Shown piece by piece: positions 2,384 through 5,368 of a stretch of 64,000 nucleotides of DNA. The stretch comes from Candidatus Binatia bacterium (lineage in GTDB: Bacteria > Desulfobacterota > Binatia > HRBIN30). The stretch lies in the NCBI GenBank assembly GCA_026415395.1, contig JAOAHD010000007.1, positions 558,001-622,000 of the forward strand, given 5' to 3'. A model generated the notes under the pieces. The model was not told where the DNA came from. It did no database searches and saw nothing but the letters and a program-made list of their open reading frames with translations. Numbering within the stretch: position 1 is the first letter of the stretch; each line of letters begins with the position of its first letter. Both the position numbers and the translations under genes were made by a program.

Positions 2384-2412
2384 TTGACAAGCGGCCTCGG
2401 CCCGTTTAGTCC
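2384..2412 (+). promoter_or_regulatory. Candidate sigma-70 promoter for the leu leader
   Basis: A perfect -35 box TTGACA lies at 2384-2389. The -10 is less clear: TTTAGT at 2405-2410 (15-nt spacing) or TAGTCC at 2407-2412 (17-nt). A start near 2418 would place the leader-peptide ATG (2445) about 25 nt into the transcript. The divergent cohesin-like gene starts at 2154, so the 2155-2383 stretch may hold the promoters for both directions; no other element was recognised in it. Confidence 0.4.
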
Positions 2413-2444
2413 TGAAAGGCGTTCTTGAGGTTGGAATTGGTTCC

Positions 2445-2540
2445 ATGAAGGTGCAAAACGTTTCCCGCAACGCCTTGGGTCTAGGGTTACTTGCGGAGCT
2501 GCTGCTTCGTTGCCCGCCCGGTGCGCCTGCGGGGACGTGA
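2445..2540 (+). CDS. leuL: leu operon leader peptide
   Basis: A 31-codon open frame runs from ATG 2445 to TGA 2538-2540. Residues 11-21 read LGLGLLAELLL: seven leucines in eleven residues. All Leu codon types except CTC are used, including TTA and CTA, which are scarce in this GC-rich genome and would slow a ribosome when charged leucyl-tRNA is low. A weak GAGG sits at 2427-2430, 14 nt upstream of the start. It is followed by an intrinsic terminator (2564-2599) and then leuA. This is the classic architecture of leucine-dependent transcription attenuation. The peptide itself probably has no other function. Confidence 0.75.
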   Translation: MKVQNVSRNALGLGLLAELLLRCPPGAPAGT

Positions 2541-2573
2541 TGGGTTGCCACGAACTCGCAGGACGCCACGGGC
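2516..2573 (+). promoter_or_regulatory. Candidate antiterminator pairing of the leu attenuator
   Basis: Bases 2516-2525 (GCCCGGTGCG), just downstream of the last Leu codons (2499-2507), can pair with the left arm of the terminator (2564-2573, CGCCACGGGC) through 5 bp plus 3 bp around two mismatches. A ribosome stalled on the Leu codons would leave 2516-2525 free and favour this pairing, while one reaching the TGA at 2538-2540 would cover it and allow the terminator. A second hairpin is possible between CCTGCG 2526-2531 and CGCAGG 2557-2562, with an inner CGTG 2536-2539 / CACG 2549-2552 stem. Hand-folded, not computed. Confidence 0.4.
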
Positions 2574-2599
2574 GGGAGCTGCTGCCCGTGGCGTTTTTT
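2564..2599 (+). terminator. Intrinsic terminator (attenuator) upstream of leuA
   Basis: Arms CGCCACGGGC (2564-2573) and GCCCGTGGCG (2584-2593) form a perfect 10-bp GC-rich stem with a 10-nt loop, followed immediately by six T (2594-2599). It lies between the leucine-rich leader peptide and leuA, 86 nt before the leuA start. This placement makes it an attenuator rather than the end of a gene. Confidence 0.85.
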
Positions 2600-2685
2600 A
2601 TTTGCGCCGCGGGCAACTCCCTCCCGCGGGGCTGGCGAGCGTGGCGTGGGAAACAGCGAAAAATGACTAGAAGGGAGTGGCTAAG

Positions 2686-4239
2686 ATGCAGCAACACGAT
2701 CCAAACGTCGTGAGGATTTTCGACACCACTTTGCGCGACGGGGAGCAGTCGCCCGGTGCCAGCATGAATGTGGAGGAGAAGGTGCTGGTGGCGCGGCAGT
2801 TGGAAAGGCTCGGGGTGGACGTGATCGAAGCCGGCTTTGCTGCGTCGTCCCCCGGTGACTTCGAGGCGGTCGCCAAGGTAGCCGCCACGGTGACCAAGCC
2901 GGTGGTGCTCAGCTTGGCTCGCACCCGCGAGCACGACATCGTGCAAGCGATTCGTGCGGTGGAAAAGGCCCGTCACCCCGGTATCCACGTGTTCATCGCG
3001 ACCTCGGATCTGCACTTGGAGCGCAAGCTCATGATGAGCCGGCAAGAAGTCATCGATGCTGCCTGTTGGGCGGTGGAGTACTGCCGGAAGTACTTGGACT
3101 ACGTGGAGTTCTCCGCTGAGGACGCCTCGCGGTCCGACCGTGACTACCTCGTCCAGGTATTTGGCGAGGTCATTCGTTGTGGCGCTTGCGTGGTCAACGT
3201 GCCCGACACCACGGGGTACGCCGTTCCCGAGGAATTCGGCGCGTTGTTCCGGTACCTCATTGCCAATACCCCGGGAAGCGAGCGGGTCATCTGGAGCGCG
3301 CACTGCCACAATGATTTGGGCATGGCGGTGGCAAACTCGCTGGCAGCGGTGAAGAACGGGGCCCGGCAAGTGGAGTGCACCGTGAACGGTATCGGCGAGC
3401 GAGCAGGTAACACGTCGCTCGAAGAAGTGGTGATGGCCATCCACACGCGGAACGATTTCTTCCAGCTCAGGACCAACATCGTTACCGAGCAAATCTACCC
3501 TGCCAGCCGCTTGCTTTCTCAAGTGACTGGTTTGGTGGTGCCGGCCAACAAGCCCATCGTCGGCGACAACGCGTTTGCCCACGAGGCGGGGATCCATCAA
3601 GACGGTGTCCTCAAAGACAAGCTGACTTACGAAATCATGCGGCCCGAATCGATCGGCCTGCCGAGCAACAAGCTCGTGTTGGGCAAGCACTCTGGGCGCC
3701 ATGCGTTTGCCGAGCGGCTCAAGCAACTGGGGGTCGACTTGTACAACGTCGACATGAACAAGGCCTTCGCCAAGTTCAAGGAATTGGCCGACCGCAAGAA
3801 GTTCGTGTACGACGAAGACATTCTTGCCATCGTCACGGAAGAGGCCGTGCGCGGACCGGACTTTTTGGAGCTGCTCGAACTGCAGGTCAGCGCGGGCACC
3901 GGCAAAACGCCCACTGCGCAGGTTCGCATGCGGGTGGATGGCACCGTGAGGGAAGCGGCGGCTGAGGGCGATGGCATGGTTGACGCCTGCTTCAAAGCTA
4001 TTTCCGATTCGGTGGGCGTGCACCCGCGCTTGGAGCGCTACGCAGTGAAAGCCATCACGGGGGGAACCGACGCCATGGGCGAAGTGTCGTGCTTGATTAG
4101 TCTCGATGGCGTCACCGCCACCGGCCAAGGGGCACATACTGATATTGTACACGCTAGCGCCCTCGCCTATGTGAACGCGCTCAACAAAATTCACAGTCGC
4201 CGCACGCGCTATCGCCAAATCTCCGGCGAAGAGCCGTAA
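2686..4239 (+). CDS. leuA: 2-isopropylmalate synthase
   Basis: Catalyses the first committed step of leucine synthesis: acetyl-CoA plus 2-oxoisovalerate to 2-isopropylmalate. The 517-residue protein has the HMGL-like TIM barrel with the signature [14 protein letters not shown] near the N-terminus, the metal-binding [14 protein letters not shown] and [17 protein letters not shown]-terminal regulatory domain (last ~130 residues) follows, as in long leucine-feedback-inhibited LeuA enzymes. ATG 2686 is preferred because AAGGGAG lies 8 nt upstream; a GTG at 2677 overlaps that site and is less likely. It is preceded by a leucine attenuator, so control is likely both at transcription and by feedback. 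Citramalate synthase is the main alternative in this family but does not fit the leucine leader. Confidence 0.95.
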
Positions 4240-4264: not shown

Positions 4265-5368
4265 GTGCGGGTGTTGGTGTTGCCCGGCGATGGGATTGGT
4301 CCGGAAGTGACCACCCAGGCGCAACGGGTGTTGGAGCGATGTGCGGAGCGGTTTGGTTTTCGGCTGGAGTTTGAAACCGCCATTGTCGGCGGGGCCGCGA
4401 TCGATCGCTGGGGAAACCCCCTTCCCGAAGCTGCGTTGCAAGCGGCACGGCGCAGCGATGCCGTGCTGCTAGGTGCGGTGGGTGGCCCGAAGTGGGATGA
4501 CCCGCAAGCACCGGTGCGCCCCGAGCAGGCGCTGCTAGGCTTGCGCAAGGCTCTGGGATTGTACGCCAATCTTCGGCCCGTAAAGCCGTTTCCGGAAGTA
4601 CTCGAGGCTTCCCCCCTTAAGGCAGATGTGCTCCGCGGCGTGGATTTGGTTGTCGTGCGCGAGCTCACCGGTGGAATTTACTTCGGCCAGCCGAGTGAGC
4701 GGCGGGTGGGTGCCGCAGGTCGCGAGGCGCTGGATACCATGATTTACAACGAGCACGAGATCGCCCGCTTGATGCGCACGGCATTTACGCTGGCACGCCA
4801 ACGGCGGCGGCGCCTGGCCTCGGTGGACAAGGCAAACGTGCTCTCGTCATCACGCTTGTGGCGCGAGATTGCACACGAGGTGCGCCAGGAATTCCCCGAC
4901 GTCGCGTATGAGGACGTGCTCGTCGATGCGATGGCGATGCACCTGCTGCGCCGGCCGCGGGACTTCGATGTGATCGCAACGGAAAATCTCTTCGGCGACA
5001 TCCTGACGGACGAAGCCTCGGTGCTCGCCGGGTCGATGGGCTTGTTGCCCTCGGCCTCCCTGGGGGAGAACAAAAACGCGCTTGGCTTACCCCAAGGGCT
5101 GTACGAGCCCATCCACGGCAGTGCGCCCGACATTGCGGGGCAGGACAAAGCAAATCCGCTTGCCGCCATCCTTTCTGCGGCGCTGTTGCTCCGCCACTCG
5201 TGTGGGCAGGAGGCTGCGGCGCAGGCGGTGGAGAACGCTGTTGCCCGGGTGCTCGCCGACGGTTGGCGCACGGCCGATATTGCGCAGCCCGGTTGCCGGC
5301 TGGTGGGCTGCGAGGAAATGGGCAGCGCTGTCTTGCGGGCTTTGGAGGACTCCCGAGCAGAGGGATGA
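4265..5368 (+). CDS. leuB: 3-isopropylmalate dehydrogenase
   Basis: NAD-dependent oxidative decarboxylation of 3-isopropylmalate to 2-oxoisocaproate in leucine synthesis. The 367-residue product starts at GTG 4265 (GGGAGG 6 nt upstream) with [10 protein letters not shown]. It has the substrate/metal region [11 protein letters not shown] and the [20 protein letters not shown] signature, then the C-terminal [17 protein letters not shown] typical of isocitrate/isopropylmalate dehydrogenases. It lies 25 nt after leuA and overlaps the next gene by 4 nt (ATGA), so it belongs to the attenuated transcript. leuC and leuD (isopropylmalate isomerase) are not in the window. Confidence 0.95.

Follow-up and report, generated by a model that had tools for sequence, protein, structure and literature searches.

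The leu operon in the window (the whole stretch of 64,000 nucleotides that was analysed) is very probably controlled by a ribosome-mediated transcription attenuator located upstream of leuA. This assignment is based on the elements found in the sequence, their conservation among relatives, and the mutually exclusive folds predicted for the RNA. The comparison of relatives and the folding both support the leucine attenuator that had been proposed for this region in the original prediction.

In the proposed mechanism, an ample supply of charged tRNA-Leu would let the ribosome run to the stop codon of the leader peptide and cover nucleotides 2513–2525, the terminator at 2563–2599 would then form, and transcription would stop ahead of leuA. 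Under leucine shortage, the ribosome would stall in the Leu run, and nucleotides 2513–2520 would pair with 2569–2576. The left arm of the terminator would thereby be taken up, allowing RNA polymerase to proceed into leuA-leuB. In the case of a transcript that is not translated at all, the terminator would form. We infer that transcription starts from the promoter at 2384–2412, that the leader frame is translated, that ribosomes stall on it, and that the switch responds to leucine.

Genomic Context

The window derives from a genome of 3.69 Mb. The closest LeuA relatives, with 93% identity, are found in one Candidatus Binatia MAG and in Bacterium HR30. The genome search groups them into the same genus as the window genome, which is, therefore, placed in Candidatus Binatota. 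The features of the region are collected in Table 1. The gene order is leuA, leuB, and then an asd-like gene and truA, and leuA and leuB are probably co-transcribed. A divergent ORF on the minus strand (1606–2250) has no NCBIfam match in its 1609–2154 part. By-eye inspection of ilvB in the same genome revealed no clear leader.

Table 1. Positions of the features assigned to the leuA region of the window.
Feature	Position	Strand	Basis
Predicted promoter TTGACA-17-TAGTCC	2384–2412	+	TTGACA in the same place in both congeners; weak -10 match (2/6)
leuL leader peptide ORF, 31 codons	2445–2540	+	Sequence; similar leaders at 60/94 loci
Regulatory Leu codons TTG CTA TTA CTT CTG CTG CTT	2475–2507	+	Sequence
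Antiterminator 5' strand, CCCGCCCG then GCG	2513–2525	+	Predicted fold; in most class A loci, about 6 nt beyond the final Leu codon
Antiterminator inner hairpin	2526–2562	+	Predicted fold: 2526–2533 with 2555–2562, 2536–2539 with 2549–2552
Intrinsic terminator, hairpin A	2563–2599	+	Stem 2563–2573 with 2584–2594; six T 2594–2599
Antiterminator 3' strand, which overlaps the left arm of the terminator	2564–2576	+	Predicted fold
Hairpin B, no U-tract in the window	2604–2632	+	Left arm 2605–2614 can pair with hairpin A right arm 2584–2593
leuA Shine-Dalgarno sequence AAGGGAG	2671–2677	+	By inspection
leuA, 2-isopropylmalate synthase	2686–4239	+	NCBIfam NF002086 756.8 bits, TIGR00973 703.5 bits, both above cut-off
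leuB, 3-isopropylmalate dehydrogenase	4265–5368	+	TIGR00169 491 bits; 25 nt past leuA

Conservation of the Leader and Terminator

Relatives were fetched by leuA, and the 500 bases upstream of the gene were scanned at 94 distinct loci. Under a first rule that required five Leu in eleven residues and a terminator within 90 nt, 64 of the 94 loci were called, compared to 0 of 470 dinucleotide shuffles, with some of the 64 being C-terminal tails of the upstream gene. A cleaned scan with a four-Leu threshold, from which upstream-gene tails were excluded and one locus was removed by hand, retains 60 of the 94 loci; the shuffle figure belongs to the five-Leu rule and not to this four-Leu rule, and the loci are related by descent, so that the counts represent non-independent events. 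About one-third of the related loci have no such leader.

The original prediction depended on finding the Leu-rich peptide and the terminator in close relatives, together with both pairings. The Leu run and the terminator are kept in both congeners (L033 and L034), as well as at the 60 loci of the cleaned scan, and in most leader-bearing loci the left arm of the terminator can pair with the stretch that directly follows the final Leu codon. Two classes can be distinguished: in class A, the terminators are built on GCCACGGGC and the end of the leader resembles PPG or PPA, and in class B, whose members are for the most part Binataceae-like, the terminators are of the ACGCCCCGGGC type.

An ordinary, constitutive terminator unrelated to leucine, preceded by a Leu-rich frame that arose by chance or is a non-functional ORF, would agree with the lack of a strong Shine-Dalgarno (SD) sequence at the window leader. 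Such an arrangement is very improbable, since leaders whose sequences otherwise differ widely have retained the Leu run, the terminator, and the spacing between the Leu run and the antiterminator strand, and none of the shuffles satisfied the five-Leu rule. Moreover, the nearest ORF upstream of the leader lies on the opposite strand, and the terminator is, therefore, not the end of an upstream transcript.

Outside the class Binatia, a Leu-rich leader and a terminator were found in leuA upstream regions of only a handful of genomes, and some of these look like chance. A covariance model (R1) was also run against 297 genomes of the phylum, as delimited by the tool, and gave 15 matches, 8 of which (including the window) are near a leuA sequence; its first-look filter scores few candidates, and absence among the 297 genomes means little. 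The remaining matches, away from leuA, are unexplained or due to chance.

Several individual loci deserve mention. A Leu-rich leader and a terminator precede leuA at L125/L189, L129, and L180, from other classes of the same tool-grouped phylum. A MAG labelled Candidatus Uhrbacteria (L108) has a leuA that is 64% identical to that of the window, with a Leu leader and terminator of its own, in AT-rich DNA; either transfer or misbinning may account for the locus. A record titled Klebsiella pneumoniae MAG (L040) contains a Binatia-type leuA locus, and its label is probably wrong. In L011, from the same order, the leader has just three Leu codons (MIPKARTAGLLLSAGSCPPCASGG), yet the promoter, the antiterminator, and two hairpins are kept. 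In L009, a second isopropylmalate-synthase-like gene is located directly 5' of leuA, and no leader was seen there.

Putative Leader Peptide and Its Leu Codons

The 31-codon frame is present where it had been placed, at 2445–2540. Its translation is MKVQNVSRNALGLGLLAELLLRCPPGAPAGT*, with seven Leu within residues 11–21. The use of scarce TTA and CTA codons, which had also been claimed, stands in part. Both codons are scarce in the window genes leuA, leuB, truA, and a P450 (TTA 2/153 and CTA 3/153 Leu codons), but the Leu run holds just one of each, and an enrichment of CTT and CTA fits the leaders better than one of TTA. CTT accounts for 24.5% of leader Leu codons versus 4.9% in leuA of the same loci, and CTA for 9.1% versus 1.6%, whereas TTA is hardly enriched (1.9% versus 1.2%). 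In 50 of the 60 leaders, the Leu run ends in CTT (2505–2507 in the window). This final CTT usually has A next, and its near-fixation is not fully accounted for by rarity or by predicted pairings.

The choice of regulatory codons has a precedent. The leu leader of S. typhimurium contains three CUA codons, and their replacement with CUG lowered the sensitivity to leucine limitation (PMC1183508). The enterobacterial leuL of Salmonella and E. coli shares with the Binatia leaders a short peptide with a Leu run, an antiterminator and a terminator before leuA, and rare Leu codons. By contrast, the Leu codons of the Binatia leaders are spread out and end in CTT, instead of the tandem CUA of enterobacteria; most Binatia relatives have no SD sequence and are probably leaderless, and two hairpins are often found.

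Terminator and Predicted Antiterminator

The terminator is also present as predicted, with six T and 86 nt 5' of the leuA ATG (2686). Its stem, hairpin A, has 11 bp that can be extended to 13. An antiterminator is predicted here as well, its placement having been rough in the original prediction: instead of 2516–2525, the segment that best pairs with the left arm of the terminator is CCCGCCCG (2513–2520), which is predicted to form a helix with CGGGCGGG (2569–2576), extended by pairing of 2523–2525 with 2564–2566.

Over 14 loci, 95% of the cells in the terminator are paired and three pairs are changed on both sides, a pattern that indicates clear covariation. Pairing in the antiterminator helix amounts to 89% over 14 loci, versus 36–48% in slid controls. 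Its covariation appears weak, the helix being too invariant for a stronger signal. In a column shuffle over the 14 loci, the antiterminator covariation was not significant, with 119 of 500 shuffles reaching its percentage paired; one compensatory change, from C-G to U-A, is found in L035, where the terminator follows the same change. Support for the antiterminator was taken from the slid controls, the duplex energies, and the spacing. The duplex energies are only moderately specific when compared with swapped partners, because the arms are alike across loci.

Predicted Folding by Ribosome Position

The free RNA was folded for every ribosome position using footprints of 10, 13, and 16 nt, and the two-state behaviour expected from the blocking of upstream bases by a ribosome was seen in silico. 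In a transcript that falls short of the complete right arm of the terminator, the antiterminator keeps a probability of 0.99–1.00 at every ribosome position with an A-site codon no later than 18, decreases in a footprint-dependent way through codons 19–22, and drops to 0 from codon 23. The switch boundary, thus, corresponds to the end of the Leu run. Without a ribosome, the terminator has a computed probability of about 0.98; a ribosome placed at the stop codon gives about 1.0. In these models, the antiterminator excludes the terminator in a manner set by the position of the ribosome, and the terminator is predicted to form when the leader is untranslated.

With the whole terminator transcribed and hairpin B absent, the antiterminator and the terminator are close in energy and the terminator is often equal or better at equilibrium; the switch, therefore, relies on the order of folding or on hairpin B. 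When the left arm of hairpin B is included and the ribosome is stalled, the antiterminated form is favoured, and the probability of the terminator is 0.01–0.06. Once the ribosome has moved to the stop codon, the terminator is favoured, at 0.97 when the left arm of B has just emerged and 0.69 when B is complete.

Predicted Promoter and Translation Start of the Leader

Of 64 Binatia leaders, 53 have a TTGAC motif 34–45 nt 5' of their ATG, compared to 1.3% of base-shuffled sequences. Promoter-like matches of at least 8/12 were found for 55 of the 64 leaders versus 6% of shuffles, with the -10 box required to begin with TA, a requirement that by itself produces part of the -10 result. In 48 of the 64 leaders, the ATG, assigned by rule and in some cases by hand, lies 5–12 nt past the predicted -10 box, most often 9. 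Judging from this distance and the general spacing of start sites, the 5' untranslated stretch is presumably of about 0–6 nt. Pairing with the anti-SD sequence is no better for the leaders than for shuffles and is strong for nearly all leuA starts, a comparison that somewhat favours leuA, for which the candidate with the highest score around the expected site was used as the start. Because the ATG follows the promoter so closely and the SD signal is absent, the leader mRNA is probably leaderless in most relatives. Exceptions to the spacing include L060, L069, L073, L079, and L083, where a later in-frame ATG, picked by hand and outside the 48 of 64, would fit.

Compared with its relatives, the window has 20 extra nt between promoter and ATG, which places the ATG 32 nt past the -10 box. 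Owing to this insertion, the leader of the window species is probably not leaderless. In this respect it would differ from the trpL attenuator of Sinorhizobium meliloti, a leaderless one whose transcript begins at the leader ATG (PMC7298713). Most Binatia relatives would probably share that arrangement with trpL, with the difference that the start is known for trpL and predicted in Binatia, and that trpL senses Trp and the Binatia leaders Leu.

The terminated RNA of the relatives would be a small, nearly leaderless mRNA, as is rnTrpL (PMC7298713), and the leader peptide or the small RNA might also act in trans, in the manner of peTrpL/rnTrpL of Sinorhizobium. We consider this very improbable, given that the peptide varies freely outside the Leu run, that its C-terminal part is explained by RNA pairing, and that nothing points to a target in trans.

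Hairpin B

Many class A relatives have a second terminator closer to leuA, at the place occupied by hairpin B in the window. It is possible, if rather doubtful, that many leu attenuators of Binatota are relay switches read from leaderless mRNA. In such a relay, leucine would be sensed by a ribosome starting at the extreme 5' end; upon stalling, the leader would take the left arm of hairpin A, and the freed right arm of A would take the left arm of B. A single stall event would, thus, disarm both hairpins together.

The pairing between the right arm of A and the left arm of B is stabler than that between the left arm of A and the right arm of B in 13 of 23 loci and weaker in 4, the arms having been picked by hand; the sequences suggest an asymmetry that is not expected from simple duplication. 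With the ribosome stalled and the left arm of B just emerged, the predicted probability of the A-right/B-left pairing is at least 0.77 in 10 of the 11 loci folded, and it is at most 0.2 in all 11 once the ribosome has moved to the stop codon; the relay is treated here as a hypothesis. In the fully emerged RNA at equilibrium, hairpin B re-forms in 6 of the 11 loci (L016, L018, L040, L041, L043, and L109) and partly in L008; a relay in those loci would, therefore, need to act kinetically. L102 is a relative in which a U-tract is missing from hairpin A and present only at hairpin B; there, the predicted relay also holds at equilibrium. If the relay were true, the ribosome at this locus would be connected to the terminator through it alone.

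The loop of hairpin B, with CTCC or CTCCC, is complementary to the GGAG or GGGAG of the leuA SD sequence (2615–2625 with 2673–2677 in the window), and similar cases are L033, L034, L035, L008, and L010. A second, translational level of control via this loop is conceivable. This complementarity would also suit translational or RNA pseudoknot control in place of attenuation. The actinobacterial LEU element, which like the window has a Leu-rich leader before leuA, contains a conserved pseudoknot whose base stem is formed by pairing of the Leu codons with the leuA SD sequence, and classical attenuation is doubtful for it (PMC1262725). We regard control of that kind as very unlikely here, because a strong U-tract intrinsic terminator stands between the leader and leuA in the window and in most leader-bearing relatives.

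Relation to Known Leader Peptides

The Rfam family Leu_leader gave no gathering-score match in the window and is absent among the matches up to E 10 at 2300–2700; the window leader is, therefore, a separate example of a mechanism that was already known. Published Leu leaders are not confined to enterics: the LeuL peptides of Campylobacter and other Epsilonproteobacteria have 20–35 amino acids with several rare Leu codons and precede leuABCD, their RNAs end soon after the stop codon, and their prediction was based in part on a ribosome-binding site (PMC3847290). As described, they resemble the window leader in the short peptide and the rare Leu codons. A search of the open-access literature found no paper with both Binatota and a leader peptide.

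The attenuator, which no Rfam model matches in the window, would add to the range of classical leucine attenuation a candidate phylum that is known mostly through assembled genomes. Its many relatives offer natural variation with which the choice of leader Leu codons can be tested, as can leader peptides without a ribosome-binding site and the possible switching of two hairpins by one stalled ribosome.

Other Hairpins Upstream of leuA

At L028, L051, L053, L059, L063, L065, L067, L068, L071, L081, L082, L091, L092, and other loci, a different, conserved CTCCCG..CGCGGGAG hairpin followed by T is found 20–110 nt before leuA, with no Leu-rich leader. It is located directly 3' of an ORF ending in an LSGP-containing stretch, which we take to be pssA, and may be another control element of leuA. 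A similar CCCGCTGGC..CGCGGGA hairpin, again with no Leu leader, precedes leuA at L020, L031, L036, and L038, several of which belong to family f10.
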